In this document: piece after piece, positions 10,751-19,032 of the stretch
Position numbering within the stretch: position 1 is the stretch's first letter
How the letters are laid out: every line of letters starts with the position of its first letter
The notes under the pieces: generated by a model
What the model was told of the DNA's origin: nothing
Databases searched by the model: none
The model's input: only the letters and a program-made list of their open reading frames with translations
Made by a program: the position numbers and the translations under genes
NCBI RefSeq assembly: GCF_016860525.1
Contig: NZ_BNEA01000015.1
Coordinates: forward strand, 5,744,968-5,808,967
Source: Streptomyces rubradiris
GTDB lineage: Bacteria > Actinomycetota > Actinomycetes > Streptomycetales > Streptomycetaceae
DNA length: 64,000 nucleotides
Direction of reading: 5' to 3'

Positions 10751-11045
10751 CCGGTCGTGTCCGGTGGGTGGGGCTTCCGCCCATCGGGCGGTCGTTCCGG
10801 GAGGTCGGCCGGTTGGTTCGGTGGGTGGGTTCGCCATCCTGTGGGAGGCCGTTTCCGGCAGTCTCACCGGTTGCGTCCGGTGGGTGCGGCTCCGGTCCGG
10901 TGGGTGGTCGTCCCCGGCGGCTTCACCGGTCGTGTTCGCCGGACGCGGCTCCCCGTCCAGTCGGCGATCGTCCCCGGCGGTCGCGCCGGTCGTGACCGGC
11001 GAGCGCCGCTCTCGCCGAGCCGGTGGCCGTCCCGGCACCCTCCCG
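10751..11045. repeat. Five degenerate tandem units of 58-60 bp
   Basis: Units start at 10751, 10809, 10867, 10926 and 10986, each beginning CCGGT(C/T)G and usually containing GGTGGGTG and a C-rich GTCCCCGGCGG end. Spacing is 58, 58, 59, 60. The array fills most of the 465-base gap (10642-11106) between the DUF6578-like gene and the SARP gene; no credible ORF is in it. Drift between units suggests an old duplication. Confidence 0.75.
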
Positions 11046-11106
11046 CCCCCTTTCCGACACCGGCCGCCCCCACCACCGATCACCGTTCGCGCCCCCTCCG
11101 GAGACA

Positions 11107-14100
11107 ATGGACCCCGTGTATTACCGGCTGCTCGGCACCACCCAGGCGTTCCGCCCCGACGGCACGGCCGTCCCGGTCGGCGGGGCGCGGCTGCGTACCC
11201 TGCTCAGCGTGCTCGCGTTGCGGGCCGGCCGGACCGTGCCCACGGCCGTGCTCGTGGACGAGGTGTGGGGCGCCGACCCGCCCGCCGACGCCACCGGCGC
11301 CCTCCAGGCGCTCGTCGGCCGGCTCCGCCGCGCCCTCGGCGCCGAGGCCGTCGCCTCCGCCGACGGCGGCTACCGGCTCACCGCCGCCCCCGACGACGTC
11401 GACCTCACCCGCTTCGACCGGCTCACCGGCGACGGCCTGACCGCCCTCGCCGACGGCGACCCGGCCAAGGCCGCCGCCGTCCTCGACGAGGCCCTCGCCC
11501 TGTGGCACGGGCCCGCCCTGCCGGACCTGCCCGACCGCACCGCCGAGGCGGCCCGCTGGGAGACCCGCCGGCTCGACGCCCGGCGCGCCCGGCACGCCGC
11601 CGCACTCGCCCTCGGCCGGGCCGAGCAGGCGCTGCCCGAGCTGACCGCGCTGTGCGACGACCACCCGCTGGACGAGCCGCTCCAGGCGCTGCGGCTGCGC
11701 GCCCTGCGCGACACCGGCCGCCCCGCCCAGGCCCTGGCCGCCTACGAGGACGTACGCCGGCTGCTCGCCGACCGGCTCGGCTCCGACCCCGGGCCGGAGC
11801 TGCGCGCCCTGCACGCCGAACTGCTGCGCGCGGAACCGGCGCCCGCCGCGCCCGCCGCCCCGGGCAACCTGCCCGCCCGGCTCACCTCCTTCGTCGGCCG
11901 CGAAGCCGACCTGGAGGCCATCGCCGCCGACCTCGCCGGGACCCGCCTGGTCACCCTGCTCGGGCCCGGCGGCGCCGGGAAGACCCGGCTGTCCCAGGAG
12001 GCCGCCGAGGCGGTACGGCACCGCGTCCGGGACGGGGTGTGGCTCGCCGAACTGGCCCCCGTGGACGACCCGGACGCCGTGCCCCAGGCCGTGCTCACCG
12101 CCATCGGCGCCCGGGACACCGTGCTGCACGGCGCCGGCGTGGACGGCATGCGCGCGGTCGCCGACCGGCACGACGACCCCCTCGAACGGCTCGTGGAGCA
12201 CTGCGCCCGGCGCCGGATGCTGCTCGTGCTGGACAACTGCGAGCACGTCGTGGACGCCGCCGCCCGGCTCGCGGAGTCCCTGCTGGCCCGCTGCCCGGAG
12301 CTGACCGTCCTCGCCACCAGCCGGGAACCCCTCGGCGTACCGGGGGAGTTGGTGCGGCCCGTGGAACCGCTGCCCGAGCCGGTCGCGCTGCGGCTGCTCG
12401 CCGAGCGCGGCGCGGCGGCCCGCCCCGGCTTCCGGGTGGCCGACGACCCGGAGGCGTGCGCCGAGATCTGCCGCCGCCTGGACGGACTCCCGCTCGCCAT
12501 CGAACTGGCCGCCGCCCGGCTGCGCATGCTGACCCCCCGGCAGATAGCCGACCGGCTGGACGACCGGTTCCGGCTGCTCACCTCCGGCAGCCGCACCGTG
12601 CTGCCCCGCCAGCAGACCCTCAGAGCCGTCGTGGACTGGTCCTGGGACCTGCTGGACGCCGCCGAACGGGACGTGCTGGCCCGGCTGTCGGTCTTCGCCG
12701 GCGGCTGCGACCTGGCCGCCGCCGAGGCCGTGTGCGGGCCGGCCGCGCTGGACGCCCTCGGCTCCCTGGTCGACAAGTCCCTGGTGGTGGCCGCGCCCGC
12801 GGCCGGCGGCATGCGCTACCGGCTGCTGGAGACCGTCGCCGAGTACGCCGCCGAACGGCTCGCCGAGACCGGGCGGCGCACCGAGACCGAACGCGCCCAC
12901 CTGACGTACTACCGCGAACTCGCCCGCACCACCGATCCGTTGCTGCGCGGCCCCGAACAGCTCGCCGCCATCGGCCGGTTCCAGCTGGAGTACGAGAACC
13001 TGCGCACCGCCTTCCGGCACGCCCTCGCCCTCGGCAACGAGCAGGAGGGGCTGTGCCTGGTCCACTCCCTGCTGTGGTTCTGGCAGATGCGCGACCAGCG
13101 CGTGGAGACCCGCAACTGGTGCCGGGAGGTCATGGCGCTCGGCCCCGACCCGTTCGCCGAACCGGCGAGCCCCGCCGCACCCGTCTGGCAGCGCTGCACC
13201 GACACCCCGCCCCCGTACACCGGCGAGGCCCTGGCGGAGGCCCGGCGCGGCGTCCATCTGGCCCATCTGGCCTGCATGGACACCGAGATGGACGCCTGGC
13301 AGACGCCCGCCGCGCAGGCCAAGCTGCGCACCATCGCCCAGGTCTACGAACCCGGCCTGCCGCAGACCTGCCGGACACCTGGCCTGCTGTGGTTCTTCGC
13401 CGTGCTGCTGACCGGCGGCGCCGACCGGCTGCACACCATCGTGGACGCCTGCGTGCGGACCTGCCGGGAGACCCCGGGCTTCGAGTGGGAGCTGGCCGGA
13501 GTGCTGTACCTGCGCGCCAACTTCCTGTCCAACCGGGCCGCTTGGACGGGCGACGCCACCCGGGACGCCGACGAGTCGCTGGAGATCTTCCGCCGCCTCG
13601 GCGACGCCTGGGGCGCCACCGAGGCCCTGGCCGCCCGTGGCGAGGCCAACGAACGCAGGGCCGCCTACGACAGGGCGGCGGCCGACTACCGGGCCGCCAT
13701 CGAGCACGCCGAACGCCTCGGCGCCCGCACCCAGACGGCCGTGCTGCGCGCCCGGCTCGGCGGCGTCCTGCTGGAGTCCGGCGAGAGCGAGCGCGGTGAG
13801 CGGATGCTCCGGGACGTCATCGCCGACCAGGACGGCGCGCCGAACGAGGCGACCACGATGGCCCGGCTGCACCTGGCCTCCTGGCTCGGCCTGACCGACC
13901 GCACCGCCGAGGCGCGCGAGCAGCTACGGGTGATGCGCGCCGAACTCCCCGTCGCCCGGTTCGTCATCTTCGACTCCCTGCTGACGTGCCAGGAGGCCCT
14001 GCTGGACGCCCTGGACCGGCGGACCGGGACGGCCCTCACCCTGGCCCGCAAGGCACTGCGGCTCAGCGCCGAACCACTGTCCCAGGCCCTCACCCCGCAT

Positions 14101-14358
14101 CTGCACTCCGTCTGCCTCACCGCCGCCGCGATGGCCCTCGCCGACACCGACGGCGGCGAGCGGGCCGCCGACGCCGCCCGCTGCCTGGGTGCCGCCCAGG
14201 CGCTGCTGCCGGCCGGTCATGTGGTGGCCGGCGTGGAGCTGCGGATCCGCGACCTGGCCGAGGCCCGGCTCCGGGCCCGGCTGGACGAGCGGTCGTACGA
14301 GGCCGCGTACGCCGAGGGCGGTGGCCTCTCCCTCGCGGAGGCCACCGCCCTGGTCTGA
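11107..14358 (+). CDS. AfsR/SARP-type regulator with BTAD, NB-ARC and TPR-like regions
   Basis: 1083 residues from ATG at 11107 (GGAG three bases before; GTG at 11116 is an alternative). Residues about 1-95 form an OmpR-type winged helix (LGTTQAFRPDG, LVDEVWG, LVGRLRRALG), 95-245 the BTAD domain, and from 260 an NB-ARC-like ATPase with P-loop LGPGGAGKTRLS near 286, LVLDNCEHVVDAAA as Walker B, and TSREPLGVPGE as the sensor motif. The last 400 residues are helical TPR-like repeats. Such proteins activate secondary-metabolite genes on binding ATP. No biosynthetic cluster adjoins; the target may be the convergent ABC exporter or a distant locus. Kinase phosphorylation, known for AfsR, is possible. 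Confidence 0.9.
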   Translation: MDPVYYRLLGTTQAFRPDGTAVPVGGARLRTLLSVLALRAGRTVPTAVLVDEVWGADPPADATGALQALVGRLRRALGAEAVASADGGYRLTAAPDDVDLTRFDRLTGDGLTALADGDPAKAAAVLDEALALWHGPALPDLPDRTAEAARWETRRLDARRARHAAALALGRAEQALPELTALCDDHPLDEPLQALRLRALRDTGRPAQALAAYEDVRRLLADRLGSDPGPELRALHAELLRAEPAPAAPAAPGNLPARLTSFVGREADLEAIAADLAGTRLVTLLGPGGAGKTRLSQEAAEAVRHRVRDGVWLAELAPVDDPDAVPQAVLTAIGARDTVLHGAGVDGMRAVADRHDDPLERLVEHCARRRMLLVLDNCEHVVDAAARLAESLLARCPELTVLATSREPLGVPGELVRPVEPLPEPVALRLLAERGAAARPGFRVADDPEACAEICRRLDGLPLAIELAAARLRMLTPRQIADRLDDRFRLLTSGSRTVLPRQQTLRAVVDWSWDLLDAAERDVLARLSVFAGGCDLAAAEAVCGPAALDALGSLVDKSLVVAAPAAGGMRYRLLETVAEYAAERLAETGRRTETERAHLTYYRELARTTDPLLRGPEQLAAIGRFQLEYENLRTAFRHALALGNEQEGLCLVHSLLWFWQMRDQRVETRNWCREVMALGPDPFAEPASPAAPVWQRCTDTPPPYTGEALAEARRGVHLAHLACMDTEMDAWQTPAAQAKLRTIAQVYEPGLPQTCRTPGLLWFFAVLLTGGADRLHTIVDACVRTCRETPGFEWELAGVLYLRANFLSNRAAWTGDATRDADESLEIFRRLGDAWGATEALAARGEANERRAAYDRAAADYRAAIEHAERLGARTQTAVLRARLGGVLLESGESERGERMLRDVIADQDGAPNEATTMARLHLASWLGLTDRTAEAREQLRVMRAELPVARFVIFDSLLTCQEALLDALDRRTGTALTLARKALRLSAEPLSQALTPHLHSVCLTAAAMALADTDGGERAADAARCLGAAQALLPAGHVVAGVELRIRDLAEARLRARLDERSYEAAYAEGGGLSLAEATALV

Positions 14359-14371
14359 CGGTCGCGCGGCG

Positions 14372-15193
14372 TCAGCTCTTCGTACGGAACTTGTGGATCG
14401 CGACCGGGGCCATCACCACGGTCAGCCCGACCGACCAGAGGACCGTCACCCACAGGGCGTGCGCCACCGGGCCGCCCTCCATCAGCCCGCGCGCGCAGTC
14501 GGCCAGCGCGGAGAGCGGGTTGTAGTCGGTGAACGCCTGGAGCCAGCCCGGCATGGACTGGGTCGGCGCGAAGATCGAGGAGCCGAACTGGAGCGGCATC
14601 AGCACCAGGAAGCCCATCGCCTGCACCGACTGCGCGTTCTTCATCACCACGCCGAGGGTCAGGAACACCCACATCAGCGCCGACCCGAACAGCGCGGACA
14701 GCGCCACGGAACCGAGCAGACCGCTCCAGCTGCCCACGTCGTAGCCCACGAGCAGGGCGACCACCAGCAGTACCGCCGTCGCGAACAGCATCCGCATCAG
14801 CTCCACCGCGATCTTCGCGAAGAGCACCGAGCCGCGCCCGATGGGCAGCGAGCGGAAGCGGTCCATGACACCGGAGTTGAAGTCCTGGTTGAAGCCGGTG
14901 CCCACACCCTGGGCCATGTTCATGCCCATCATGGCGAGCAGTCCGGGCACCACGTACTGCACGTACTGCTCCTGGCCGCCGCCCAGCGACTTGCCGATGG
15001 AGCCGCCGAAGACGTACACGAACAGCAGGGTGAAGACGACCGGGAACAGGATGGCGTCGAACATCGACTCCGGGTCCTGGCGGATCCACAGCAGATTGCG
15101 GCGGATCAGCGCGCCGGTGTGCCGCAGGTGGGCCCGCAGCGGGATCGGCGTATCGGCCTGCGCGGCGGCCGGGGAGAGGGTGGCGGTGCTCAT
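14372..15193 (-). CDS. ABC-2 type drug export permease (DrrB-like)
   Basis: 273 residues with six membrane segments. ATG at 15193 overlaps the upstream ATPase stop by four bases (ATGA), so translation is coupled. RNLLWIRQDPESMFDAILFP and the MDRFRSLPI block match the DrrB/NodJ exporter family, and GFLVLMPLQFGSSIFAPTQSMP the later segments. With its ATPase it should export an antibiotic or lipid. It ends 14 bases from the convergent SARP gene. Confidence 0.9.
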   Translation of the reverse strand: MSTATLSPAAAQADTPIPLRAHLRHTGALIRRNLLWIRQDPESMFDAILFPVVFTLLFVYVFGGSIGKSLGGGQEQYVQYVVPGLLAMMGMNMAQGVGTGFNQDFNSGVMDRFRSLPIGRGSVLFAKIAVELMRMLFATAVLLVVALLVGYDVGSWSGLLGSVALSALFGSALMWVFLTLGVVMKNAQSVQAMGFLVLMPLQFGSSIFAPTQSMPGWLQAFTDYNPLSALADCARGLMEGGPVAHALWVTVLWSVGLTVVMAPVAIHKFRTKS

Positions 15194-16209
15194 GCGGCGA
15201 CCTCCTGGCGGGCGGGCGGGGCGTCCTGCGGGGCACTGGCGCGGTGGCCGGTGAGGGACAGGAACACCTCGTCCAGGCTGGGTAGTTCGGTGGTGATGGA
15301 GGACAGGGTGATGCCGCGCGCGGTGACCGCGCCGACCACGGCGGTCAGCTGCTCGTCGCTGAGGATCGGCACCAGCAGGGTCCCGGTCTCGGTGTCCACG
15401 GTGGTGGACGCCAGCCCGGTGATGCCCAGTTCGTCCAGCATGCCGGCGAGCGGGCGCAGCTGGAGCGGGTCGACCGGCCGCACCCGCAGGGTGCGCCCGC
15501 CGACGCGGGCCTTGAGCTCCTCGATGCCGCCCTTGGCGATGACCCGGCCGCGGTCCACCACGGTCAGCTCGGAGGCGAGCTGTTCGGCCTCCTCCATGTA
15601 CTGGGTGGTGAGCAGCACGGTGACGCCGTCGCCGACCATCGCCTTGACCTCGTCCCACACCTCGTTGCGGGTGCGCGGGTCGAGGCCGGTGGTCGGCTCG
15701 TCCAGGTACAGCACGGCCGGCCGGCCGATCATCGAGGCGGCCAGGTCCAGCCGGCGCCGCATGCCGCCGGAGTAGGTGCCGGCCGGGCGCCGGGCGGCCT
15801 CGGTCAGCGAGAACCGCTCCAGCAGCTCGTCGGCGCGGGCCCGGGCCTCCTTGCGGGACAGGTCCAGCAGCCGGCCGATCAGGTACAGGTTCTCCCAGCC
15901 CGGGAGCTTCTCGTCCACCGACGCGTACTGGCCGGTGAGACCGATGACCCGGCGCAGCTGCCGGGGCTGGCGTACGACGTCGTAGCCGGCCACGGTGGCC
16001 TGCCCGGAGTCCGGGGTGATCAGGGTGGACAGGATGCGTACGAGGGTGGTCTTGCCGGCGCCGTTCGGCCCGAGCACACCCATCACGGTGCCCTCGCGCA
16101 CGTCCAGATCGACACCGTCCAGCGCCTTGGTCTCGCCGTAGTGCTTGACCAGCCCCCGTACGGTCACGGCGGAGCGTCCGCCGGCGGGGTTGTCGTCGAT
16201 GCGTGTCAT
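15190..16209 (-). CDS. ABC transporter ATP-binding protein (DrrA-like)
   Basis: 339 residues from ATG at 16209 (MTRIDDNPAGGRS). Walker A is GPNGAGKTTL near residue 54, the signature is TYSGGMRRRLDLA near 147, and Walker B AVLYLDEPTTGLDPRTR follows. The C-terminal about 100 residues are the DrrA-type extension (LRVRPVDPLQLRPL). It pairs with the permease downstream for export of drugs or similar hydrophobic compounds. An in-frame ATG 30 bases upstream is less likely. Confidence 0.93.
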   Translation of the reverse strand: MTRIDDNPAGGRSAVTVRGLVKHYGETKALDGVDLDVREGTVMGVLGPNGAGKTTLVRILSTLITPDSGQATVAGYDVVRQPRQLRRVIGLTGQYASVDEKLPGWENLYLIGRLLDLSRKEARARADELLERFSLTEAARRPAGTYSGGMRRRLDLAASMIGRPAVLYLDEPTTGLDPRTRNEVWDEVKAMVGDGVTVLLTTQYMEEAEQLASELTVVDRGRVIAKGGIEELKARVGGRTLRVRPVDPLQLRPLAGMLDELGITGLASTTVDTETGTLLVPILSDEQLTAVVGAVTARGITLSSITTELPSLDEVFLSLTGHRASAPQDAPPARQEVAA

Positions 16210-16307
16210 GGGGAAGACAGTGCCAGGCCCCACTGACAAACCGCCGACAGAGCGCCGACACCGGGTACCGGCGCCGCGTCGGCGGCCTGTCGGCGCGGGC
16301 GGGGGCG

Positions 16308-16991
16308 CTACGACACCTGCCGGATGTCGGCGCCGACGAGCTGCCCGCCGGACACGGTGTAGGTGCCCCGGAACACCTGCACACTGCCGTCGGTCTGGGT
16401 CGCCCGGATCTCCGCGGCGACCTCACCGCCGCCGTTGTCGGAGGCGGTGACGTCGATGTGCCGGGTGGAGGAGAAGCCCGCCACCCAGTCCGAGTAGGAG
16501 CCGCCGAAGAGCCGGCCGCCGCCCATGGACCAGGCGGCCTGGAAGTCCCCGGCGTTGAGGTGGTCGTAGTACGTGGTGACGACCGCGCTCGCGTCCTGTT
16601 CCTCCGCCGAGGGCTCGGGCGTCGGGGTGTCGTCGTATCCGCCGCTGTCGTCGTAGTCGGGTGTGACCGCCGGTGTGGTGTACCCGCCGTCGGTGGGGGA
16701 CGGCAGGGAGGTCCAGCCGTCGTAGGACCCGCCGGGCGACACGGTGACGCCGGACCAGCCGCCCGCCGACGGGGTGTCGGGGCCGTCCGCGACGGCCACC
16801 CCGAGCGTCACCCCGCCGGCCACCAGCACCGCCAGCAGCGCCCAGGGCAGCCAGACCGGCAGCCGGGTGGCGCCGACGCGCACATACCCGCCCCCGGCCG
16901 GCTCGGGCGCGGCGCGCGGCGCCCCGCAGTCCGGGCAGTCCGGCCGCGCGGCGTCCTCGACGCGCGCGCCGCAGTGAACACAGAAATGCAT
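16308..16991 (-). CDS. Zinc-ribbon, single-pass membrane protein of unknown function
   Basis: 227 residues starting MHFCVHCGARVEDAARPDCP. CxxC...CxxC in the first 22 residues is a zinc ribbon; a single membrane helix (WLPWALLAVLVAGGVTLGVAV) follows near residue 48, and a serine/glycine/tyrosine-rich linker leads to an extracellular domain of about 100 residues (VVTTYYDHLNAGDFQAAWSM ... GTYTVSGGQLVGADIRQV) that looks like an NTF2-like fold. Zinc-ribbon-plus-helix proteins of this kind are membrane-located adaptors. It is the last gene of the three-gene cassette 16308-19032. Confidence 0.75.
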   Translation of the reverse strand: MHFCVHCGARVEDAARPDCPDCGAPRAAPEPAGGGYVRVGATRLPVWLPWALLAVLVAGGVTLGVAVADGPDTPSAGGWSGVTVSPGGSYDGWTSLPSPTDGGYTTPAVTPDYDDSGGYDDTPTPEPSAEEQDASAVVTTYYDHLNAGDFQAAWSMGGGRLFGGSYSDWVAGFSSTRHIDVTASDNGGGEVAAEIRATQTDGSVQVFRGTYTVSGGQLVGADIRQVS

Positions 16992-16998
16992 GGCCCCC

Positions 16999-17085
16999 GC
17001 TCTCCGTCTCCGGCCCGCTCTCCGCTACAGGCCGCTCTCCGTCTCCGGCCCGTTTTCCGTCTCCGTGCCGCTCTCCGGCTACAGG
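16999..17085. repeat. Short 35-bp direct repeat between two cassette genes
   Basis: GCTCTCCGTCTCCGGCCCG occurs at 16999 and again at 17034, a 35-bp period, with further decayed CTCTCCG copies to about 17076 and CTACAGGCCGC appearing twice, once overlapping the stop of the 17079-17459 gene. It fills the gap between the two genes. Confidence 0.6.
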
Positions 17086-17459
17086 CCGCGGACGGCTTCC
17101 TCGATGGTCACCGCGAGCGAGGCCAGCCCGGCGAACCCGGGCACGGCCTCCACCAGCGCCTTCGCGACCCGGCGCAGCTTGCCCGTACGGGGCTCGGGCG
17201 CGGCCAGCTCCTCGCGCGCGTCCTCGGCGAACTCCGCCAGGTCCTCCCGCTCCGGGTGGTCCGAGCGGCGCAGCTCCTCGACGAACCGGGCCAGCAGGTC
17301 GCTGATCTCCTGCGGGGTCAGCGGCCGGCCCCCGGTCCGCTCCGCCTCTTCCTCCGTGACCCGGAAGTCGACGCGGGCGTTGCTGCCGCTCGCCACCACC
17401 GTGTTCCTGACCTGCGCGTTCCCCGTCGCGATGACGCCGTCGTTGCTGCGCTGGTGCAT
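17079..17459 (-). CDS. Small protein with N-terminal amyloid-like motif and C-terminal hydrophobic helix
   Basis: 126 residues. Residues 8-30 (GVIATGNAQV ... VASGSNARV) form a glycine/alanine/valine motif that aligns without gaps to the C-terminus of the upstream gene's protein, with 11 identities in 23. Residues about 44-90 are a charged helical region (LTPQEISDLLARFVEELRRS) and 97-126 an amphipathic/hydrophobic helix pair (KALVEAVPGFAGLASLAVTI). This is the layout of a small effector brought to a partner by a shared motif. No enzyme motif is present. It starts 38 bases after the upstream stop. The functional reading is an inference; the shared motif is observed. Confidence 0.72.
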   Translation of the reverse strand: MHQRSNDGVIATGNAQVRNTVVASGSNARVDFRVTEEEAERTGGRPLTPQEISDLLARFVEELRRSDHPEREDLAEFAEDAREELAAPEPRTGKLRRVAKALVEAVPGFAGLASLAVTIEEAVRGL

Positions 17460-17496
17460 GCCGGTCCCCGTTCGTCCGTTGCGTATGCGGTGGTTG

Positions 17497-19032
17497 TCAG
17501 TCGGTGTTGGGCCGCGGGATCTTCTTCAGGATGGCCGAGATGCGGGACTTGTCGCCCGAGGCGACCGCGCTCGACTCGACCTTCGCCCCCGCGGTGGCGA
17601 TGATGCCGTTGTTGATGATGGTTTCCTGACGCTTGATCAGATCGCCCGCGTCGATGTCGTGTTCCACGGCGAACTCCACCAGGGCGTCCAGAATCCGCCG
17701 TTCGACGGTCTTGAGGACCATCCCGGAGTCGACCTTCTGGAAGTAGCGGTGGTGGTCCGTGGCGGAGGCGAGCTGCCGCACGCTCTTGCGCGCCCCGTAG
17801 TCGAACACCCCGAGCCGGGTGATCTGCCGGTGCTGCTTCTTCAGCCGCTTGCGCATCCCGAAGTCGGGGAAGAAGCCGGTGACCGCGCGCCCCGGCGAGG
17901 CGATCATCACGAACGGGGTGCTGGCGAGGCTCTGCAGCGCCATCGACAGGAACTCGCGCGGCGAGGGGGCCGGCATCAGGGAGTCGATGGTCCGGTAGCG
18001 GTCCAGCAGCGGGCACAGCACGGTGGGCAGGGCCTCCACGAACAGGTTGGAGTCCGAGCGCACCAGCCGCAGGAACACCGAGGTCACCAGCTCCCCGCCC
18101 CAGCCCGAGGAGTGGGTGACCAGATAGGCGCGGGCGGTCTCCTCCGGGTCCCGCTTCAGCGCGTCCAGCCGGTCGGCGCCGATCCGGGCCACCGGGCGGC
18201 CGAGCGGGTCCGGCAGGAAACGGGTGTCGCCCAGCAGCGCCGAGCCCTCCACGAACACCCGCTCCTCCAGCTCCAGGCAGGGCAGCGACAACTCGCCGAC
18301 CCGCCGGGCGATATGGGCGTACAGGTCCGCGACGTCGAAGTCCCGCGGCCGCACGCCCTCCCGCCCGGAGGCGGTCACGTCGAAGACCAGCGACCAGGAG
18401 TCCAGTTCCTGGCCGTATCCGGTGAACGGCGAGAAGCCGCTGTAGACGGTGAGGTTGCCGCGCGCGTACTCGTCGATCTGGCGCAGCCGCCGGGCGGCGG
18501 ACTCGTTGGGCGGCGGCGGTGCCTGCGCCGGGTCGAACCGGTCGGGCCGCAGCCGCTGGAGGCGCTCGCCGTACTGGGTGGAGAGGGCGAAGACCAGCGT
18601 GGTCAGCCAGCCGAACAGCAGCATGAGGAACACGGCGAGGCCGCTGTGGATCACCAGCAGGCCGAGGACCAGCACCAGGAACTCCACGGCCAGCAGCAGG
18701 TCCCTGGCGTGCCGGCGCGCGTTGGCCTCGTAGGCGTAGCGCAGCACCACGGGTACGTCGCAGCCCGGGGCCGGTGCCACGCCGAGGTGCGGTTCGGCGG
18801 CGACGTCCCTGATCAGGGAGTCGGCGTACTGCCGGTCCAGGTAGACGGCCGCGCACATGTACCGGGTCAGGTCCCGGCCGCCGGTCCAGCGGGGCACGGC
18901 GAGGTGGGGCACCGACCGGTCCGCGTCCGCGCTCCCGGCGACGGCCAGCGTGGCCCCGCACGCGCCGCAGAACGCCGCCCCGGGCACGGTGGCGGTGGAA
19001 CAGTCGGCGCAGACGGCCGGTGGCTGGCTCAT
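17497..19032 (-). CDS. Zinc-ribbon membrane protein with C-terminal amyloid-like motif
   Basis: 511 residues from ATG at 19032, with GGGAGAGAC as ribosome site; a longer in-frame extension is not family-like. An N-terminal zinc ribbon (CADCSTATVP..CGACGA) leads to two adjacent membrane helices near residues 105-150 (LLLAVEFLVLVLGLLVI, VFLMLLFGWLTTLVFA). The middle has YSGFSPFTGYGQELDSWSL, a motif of an uncharacterised actinobacterial membrane family. After QETIINN near residue 469, residues 476-498 (GIIATAGAKV ... VASGDKSRI) repeat the motif found at the start of the next gene's protein. It likely acts as a membrane sensor or scaffold; the cue is unknown. Confidence 0.75.
   Translation of the reverse strand: MSQPPAVCADCSTATVPGAAFCGACGATLAVAGSADADRSVPHLAVPRWTGGRDLTRYMCAAVYLDRQYADSLIRDVAAEPHLGVAPAPGCDVPVVLRYAYEANARRHARDLLLAVEFLVLVLGLLVIHSGLAVFLMLLFGWLTTLVFALSTQYGERLQRLRPDRFDPAQAPPPPNESAARRLRQIDEYARGNLTVYSGFSPFTGYGQELDSWSLVFDVTASGREGVRPRDFDVADLYAHIARRVGELSLPCLELEERVFVEGSALLGDTRFLPDPLGRPVARIGADRLDALKRDPEETARAYLVTHSSGWGGELVTSVFLRLVRSDSNLFVEALPTVLCPLLDRYRTIDSLMPAPSPREFLSMALQSLASTPFVMIASPGRAVTGFFPDFGMRKRLKKQHRQITRLGVFDYGARKSVRQLASATDHHRYFQKVDSGMVLKTVERRILDALVEFAVEHDIDAGDLIKRQETIINNGIIATAGAKVESSAVASGDKSRISAILKKIPRPNTD

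Follow-up and report, generated by a model that had tools for sequence, protein, structure and literature searches.

Bacterial amyloid-signaling (BASS) motifs BASS1-10 couple bacterial NLRs to Bell, CHAT or TIR effectors (PMC7889193, PMC8086366, PMC12261475, in the sections dealing with these pairs), and in the EAD-coupled NTPase conflict systems homotypic adaptors link variable effectors to a constant core, as outlined in the corresponding part of PMC7159879. Moreover, the effectors listed for bacterial conflict systems include TIR and PNPase domains (PMC8195603, in the part concerned). This paper describes a three-gene cassette in a stretch of 64,000 nucleotides (nt) of Streptomyces rubradiris DNA (assembly GCF_016860525.1, contig NZ_BNEA01000015.1, positions 5,744,968 to 5,808,967; the whole stretch is referred to as the window), in which the C-terminus of a receptor-like membrane protein, P0003, and the N-terminus of its effector-like neighbor, P0004, carry a matched motif. 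P0003 is probably an NTPase-free membrane receptor that signals to a dedicated suicide-type effector, P0004, via this amyloid-like motif. The features of the cassette are as follows:

17497..19032, minus strand: P0003, receptor-like membrane protein of 511 residues, with a zinc ribbon (about 8-30), a membrane hairpin (about 108-153), a predicted cytoplasmic domain (about 160-476), and a C-terminal motif
17539..17607, minus strand: C-terminal motif of P0003 (residues 476-498); residues 477-511 have a predicted local distance difference test score (pLDDT) below 50 in the monomer model
17079..17459, minus strand: P0004, effector-like protein of 126 residues, with an N-terminal motif, a variable linker, and a four-helix domain (49-124)
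17370..17438, minus strand: N-terminal motif of P0004 (residues 8-30); residues 1-43 have a pLDDT below 50 in the monomer model
16308..16991, minus strand: P0005, accessory membrane protein of 227 residues, with a zinc ribbon, one membrane segment, a low-complexity linker, and a C-terminal domain

The genes follow each other on the minus strand in the order P0003 (19032 to 17497), P0004 (17459 to 17079, after a gap of 37 nt), and P0005 (16991 to 16308), and close relatives are those of S. achromogenes (97%) and S. eurythermus (95%; values for the best segment). Ungapped alignment of residues 476-498 of P0003 (GIIATAGAKVESSAVASGDKSRI) with residues 8-30 of P0004 (GVIATGNAQVRNTVVASGSNARV) gave 11 identities in 23 positions, exactly as claimed in a first-pass annotation made from the DNA letters.

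Relatives of the pair were compared at 149 loci, i.e., L007 and L009-L118 (111 loci) and 38 later loci, 22 of which were from other genera of the class. This set excludes L001 and L005, which both have the pair, the repeats L002, L003, L004, and L006 (of L011, L010, L013, and L014, respectively), the repeats L155-L157, L159, L160, L163, and L165, the duplicate L198 (of L174), L172, which ends 36 nt after the receptor, and L176, which gave no downstream open reading frame (ORF). L007 and L161 were retained despite a broken receptor frame in their contigs. Composition, codons, and tree were determined for 145 loci, without L082, L170, L007, and L161, and the receptor tree contained 103 of these 145 after thinning and was built by a quick method. 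The downstream ORF was picked by the GC content at codon positions, blind to the motif, and the first possible codon was taken as the partner start. Matching was assessed by Smith-Waterman comparison of the receptor tail (last 70 residues for the 111 loci, last 90 for the 149 loci) with the partner start. The partner started within 50 nt of the receptor in 139 of the 149 loci and overlapped it in 62, an adjacency that is partly built in because the search for partners was confined to a stretch that begins 45 nt ahead of the receptor stop and ends 300 nt behind it.

At 138 of the 149 loci the cognate tail and start scored above 99% of shuffles, with mean scores of 73.3 for cognate, 33.1 for non-cognate, and 26.7 for shuffled pairs. 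The first 111 loci gave corresponding values of 73.5, 33.7, and 25.8 (shuffled starts), with 107 of them above 99% of shuffles, and when each of their 26 receptor clusters was represented by one locus, the observed mean score was 71.7 as compared to 32.7 upon permutation (standard deviation 2.6, maximum 43.4, 2000 draws). The pairing is thereby established at the level of sequence, within the genus as well as in other genera. Moreover, the motifs differ widely between receptor clades yet agree within a locus, as illustrated by the pairs GDDKRVYVRDNHGALYAHSKH / GDDKRTYVKDNHGTLYAHSKH in L035, NQGLIQQGGTSIIGNQAIG / NNGLVINGGTHYVGNQAIG in L036, and NRIRFGNISGSGNRVGH / NSIRFRNISGNGNHVGH in L033. 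This change in step is also apparent from the correlation between tail-tail and start-start similarity (r 0.82), which leaves a partial r of 0.32 once the similarity of receptor bodies and of effector bodies is taken out; 999 permutations, which model phylogeny incompletely, reached 0.068 at most.

A profile of the motif type of the window, searched in 101 genomes of the genus, had its strong matches (E<=1e-13) at six places, which are the receptor tail and the adjacent partner start in each of three genomes; three further matches were weak and partial (E 2.2e-4, 0.005, and 0.01). In the genome of the window the motif occurs at two places at E<=0.01, both in the P0003/P0004 pair. The first-pass annotation had named as counter-evidence a motif that is widespread in unpaired proteins, or homologues that are rarely adjacent and have diverged motifs; given the paired strong matches in three genomes and the 138 matching loci, neither was borne out. 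A second module in the same genome (L150, G000:C15:2628512-2630221) has an unrelated motif (VVGGTFAIGAHAHA / VSGSTFAIGSHARA), and because the two motifs are unrelated, the two modules would be insulated from each other.

The matched segments, with a median length of 29 residues (145 loci), are rich in Asn (10.7% versus 1.2% in receptor bodies) and Gly (18.2% versus 8.5%) and also enriched in Ser, Thr, Ile, and Gln, whereas Leu, Arg, Glu, and Pro are scarce. Their hydrophobicity alternates every two residues (13.3 versus 7.8 in shuffles at 180 degrees), and a helical period was not found (6.4 versus 7.7 in shuffles at 100 degrees). Beta-arch amyloid motifs display composition and alternation of this kind, which makes the motif a candidate amyloid and is no proof of one. 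The motif regions of P0003 and P0004 are disordered in models of which the folded parts are confident, and a second copy of the motif is present in 5 of the 149 effectors (L109, L162, L164, L178, and L186).

The domain behind the effector motif has been exchanged. In the P0004 model, the motif region (1-43) is disordered, and residues 49-124 form a four-helix bundle that is modeled with confidence. Among the 147 partners scanned with Pfam, 37 matched DUF5955, nine CAP12-PCTIR_TIR, seven PNP_UDP_1, and four EAD1 at E<=0.001; the remaining partners matched none of these, and those that were aligned appear to be small helical proteins as well. P0004 itself was not listed for DUF5955 (PF19380) at E<=1, and its match to EAD1 (E=0.0053, 17.6 bits) falls under the cut-off of 24.2. 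Effector class requires four changes on the receptor tree, on which TIR and PNP loci were assigned by their C-terminal sequences, in numbers that agree with the Pfam-scan counts, and "helical" is the default label. The TIR loci make up a single supported group, as do the EAD1 loci, and both groups lie next to or within receptors that have helical partners; PNP accounts for two changes, and the long branch of L184 underlies one of them. EAD1 has been proposed to recruit other effectors (PMC7159879, in the part on these domains). The effector exchange, the matches at 138 of 149 loci, and the motifs that change in step strongly support the reading of receptor, effector, and shared motif that was put forward in the first-pass annotation.

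The receptor family has a variable N-terminus, a predicted membrane hairpin, a domain of about 320 residues, and a disordered C-terminal motif. P0003 has a single hydrophobic block (about 108-153), which is modeled as a long helix pair through the membrane, and the model has a mean pLDDT of 88 up to about residue 476, comprising a mixed alpha/beta domain, followed by a disordered tail from residue 477. Structure searches with P0003 returned no convincing known fold, and its matches in Pfam and NCBIfam were all weak, some of them being zinc ribbons, in line with the CxxC...CxxC pattern at its N-terminus (DZR E=0.0028, below the cut-off). No NTPase family was detected in 19 diverse receptors searched against Pfam and NCBIfam at E<=0.01, and a Walker-A-like pattern was present in 2 of the 149 receptor ORFs, which include the untranslated upstream stretch. 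The N-terminal modules differ between receptors: P0003 has a zinc ribbon, and two of the 19 diverse members have an FHA domain, which suggests a phospho-threonine input for these two. At least 247 of 392 genomes of the genus contain one or more receptor-family matches at E<=0.001 (the weakest taken uninspected). In the class, matches were found in 43 of 296 genomes and 21 of 114 genera, or in 36 genomes and 16 of 114 genera when seven genomes with zinc-ribbon-only matches (query residues 3-68 at most) are subtracted.

Some individual receptors deviate from this layout. Longer versions of approximately 760-780 residues are encoded at L036:370-2694 and L037:340-2622, and are presumably the two with an FHA domain. 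A distant match to the receptor profile (L151, G000:C1:1098841-1099893; E 2.5e-31) lies in a 987-residue open frame without an evident motif at its end. In the Actinomadura harenae contig (L007:1984-3616), the receptor reading frame is split and the partner gene is intact.

The family resembles the BASS systems in its adjacent receptor and effector genes, its short matched motif (21-40 residues in BASS, as given in the relevant sections), the existence of several motif families, the exchangeable effectors (helical, TIR), and the occurrence in filamentous actinobacteria. TIR matches were obtained for 9 of the 147 partners, and the effector of the window is an unassigned four-helix bundle. In contrast to BASS, the receptor is a membrane protein in which no NB-ARC, NACHT, or STAND domain was found, and the motif is C-terminal in the receptor and N-terminal in the effector, both in the window pair and in the 138 matching loci (relatives were searched in this arrangement alone), whereas the sources describe N-terminal motifs in NLRs and C-terminal motifs in BASS effectors. 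Because two defining features of BASS, the NLR receptor and the receptor-N/effector-C polarity, were not found, the family is not assigned to BASS as judged from the features described, and the BASS/RHIM system that the first-pass annotation had proposed is not supported as it was stated. RHIM was not among the Pfam matches of P0003 and P0004 at E<=1, a search in which such short motifs are easily missed. By analogy, the best reading is that the family works like NLR/BASS signalosomes, with another receptor and reversed polarity.

Other known systems share single features with the family. The second motif copy in five effectors is reminiscent of the two-repeat HET-S domain of the fungal HET-S / NWD2 prion system, from which the present family differs in that no NLR was found and no HeLo-type Pfam match was obtained among the 147 partners. 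As in the EAD-coupled systems, variable effectors would be joined to a constant core through homotypic elements, and EAD1 is a partner domain (4 of 147); coupling here would involve a disordered motif rather than the folded EAD described in that source, and no NTPase core of that kind was detected in the receptor, nor does the ABC-transporter ATPase encoded after P0005 represent one. In the two-gene EACC1 system, EACC1 is a single-helix protein that is mostly paired with a caspase and not with the present receptor, according to the part of PMC7159879 that treats it. The TIR partners match the CAP12/Pycsar TIR (PF10137), and differ from it by their fusion to an N-terminal matched motif and by being encoded beside a membrane receptor. 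Many partners match DUF5955, whereas P0004 itself does not at E<=1; the DUF5955 gene that is common in the genus is free of the motif, and its fetched flanks contain no receptor.

On the basis of these comparisons, we infer as follows how the pair is triggered, in which direction it signals, that its motifs template each other in an amyloid state, and that the effector is toxic. At rest, both motifs would be disordered. An input from the membrane, from the accessory membrane protein, or from the N-terminal module (the zinc ribbon, or FHA in some relatives) would cause the receptors to cluster at the membrane, where their C-terminal motifs would nucleate a short cross-beta (amyloid-like) stack. 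This stack would template the matching effector motif, so that effector domains are gathered at the membrane and switched on, resulting in growth arrest or cell suicide. By analogy such an output is most likely, because in sister modules this place is taken by a TIR or PNP/UDP phosphorylase-family domain or by an EAD1 adaptor; for the helical bundle of the window, membrane damage is favored but unproven. Phage defence is shown by nothing here, and a role in developmental suicide is equally possible.

Several observations weigh against P0003 and P0004 as an amyloid-coupled receptor and suicide effector. Eleven of the 149 loci fall below the 99% line, including L007 and L161 with their broken receptor frames, L082 and L170, both devoid of a matching partner, and L032, L070, L079, L095, L154, L177, and L188, which score 36-43 against a line of 44. 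The own partner was ranked single best for just 38 of 111 tails and in the top five for 76, because close relatives have common motifs. A single-sequence search with P0004 in 100 genomes returned its own copy alone, without a relative in the 99 others; partners diverge fast and are therefore far easier found by position than by sequence. The helical domain of P0004 had no confident match in fold searches, and P0004, which does end in helices as the first-pass annotation described, is marginally hydrophobic (best 19-residue window 1.73). In the genus, 53 of 61 genomes contain a related DUF5955 gene that lacks the motif, and no receptor was seen beside it in the fetched flanks of 30 such loci (L119-L148); a helical fold of this kind is therefore not necessarily toxic. 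For the PNPase domains of related systems, it has been proposed that they may make a second messenger instead of killing (Kaur et al. 2020, PMC7159879, in the part on these domains). The toxicity of the effectors and the amyloid nature of the motif are predictions from sequence. Finally, the neighbors seen were panB, MFS, and ABC transporter genes, in a survey that included no scan aimed at defence genes.

The pairing data would fit any homotypic interaction, and the matched motif could therefore be a non-amyloid docking element (strand exchange or a small beta-solenoid formed in trans) that permanently joins receptor and effector, such that the receptor restrains and releases the effector or that the pair serves non-killing membrane or developmental signaling. 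A weak match to the YdcK beta-solenoid repeat was obtained for one start region (E 0.0018, below the cut-off), and the frequent receptor relatives in the genus would also fit a developmental role. Templated assembly is favored over docking by the Asn/Gly-rich, charge-poor motif, its strand alternation, the disorder of the motif regions, and the second motif copy on some effectors, as well as by the exchange for TIR, PNP, and EAD1 domains, which act on assembly or recruitment. We regard such docking as a possible though unlikely explanation.

Far less probable is a standard NLR/BASS amyloid signalosome with its NLR encoded elsewhere and P0003 as merely an extra partner. A SARP-type, STAND-like regulator gene lies about 3 kb away, and BASS motifs are found chiefly in actinobacteria and cyanobacteria (PMC7889193, in the section on distribution); nevertheless, the regulator, a protein with BTAD and Trans_reg_C domains, is encoded on the opposite strand, and the only two places of the motif in its own genome at E<=0.01 are those of the P0003/P0004 pair. 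We consider it most improbable that the motif similarity is a functionless remnant of duplication or gene conversion between the adjacent genes. Identical residues do use the same codon in 1418 of 2199 cases, where 1254.9 were expected from codon usage, and slightly more often in cognate pairs (64.5% of 2199) than in non-cognate pairs (59.6% of 6662), but this excess is small, and selection on the protein accounts for the similarity better than recent copying. Moreover, the motif holds the same two positions in the sampled clades, in most of which identity to the window proteins is 23-37% for receptors and 15-28% for partners, and the motif type of the window is strong nowhere else in the 101 genomes. 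Taken beyond this single pair, the chances appear evenly balanced that the receptor-effector family represents an NLR-free, prion-like signaling class in filamentous actinobacteria, with a membrane receptor superfamily, clade-private insulated amyloid-like motifs that template dedicated and exchangeable suicide effectors (helical bundle, TIR, nucleosidase, or EAD1 adaptor), and two or more orthogonal modules in a cell.

P0005 has a zinc ribbon at its start (weak, below the cut-off) and one hydrophobic segment, and its relatives adjoin receptors in three receptor clades. In the clade of the window, a relative is located downstream in 11 of the 14 loci L009-L022 (L009, L010, L012-L018, L021, and L022; the L011 sequence is cut short), and elsewhere relatives are found upstream in all nine TIR loci and downstream in L109. 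They have in common a C-terminal domain that is joined to a membrane segment by a low-complexity linker. P0005 may have an outward-facing sensing role. The third gene, which had been proposed as a zinc-ribbon adaptor, is thus a recurrent accessory that is not obligatory, and the zinc ribbon is not its recurring part.

A review has raised the question whether signaling amyloids exist outside NLR pathways, and the family provides a large, directly testable candidate for a positive answer; in the literature searched, no description of it was found. With dozens of motif pairs that are matched or mismatched by nature, it would allow the specificity of amyloid templating to be tested; it includes at least two modules with unrelated motifs in one genome, and brings CAP12-type TIR, PNP, and EAD1 domains together under a single receptor family. 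It also yields a first functional hypothesis for DUF5955-like proteins, on which a literature search returned no paper.

The cassette is flanked by panB upstream and, after P0005, by the gene of an ABC transporter ATPase downstream. The SARP-type regulator gene at 11023-14358 (plus strand), approximately 3 kb from the cassette and on the opposite strand, has Trans_reg_C, BTAD, and AAA_16 matches, so the absence of a STAND ATPase noted in the first-pass annotation applies to the cassette and does not extend to the window. The ABC transporter ATPase, of the DrrA type, is encoded at 15190-16239 (minus strand), 68 nt behind P0005, and may form one transcription unit with the cassette; a similar gene occupies the same place in the relative at L006.

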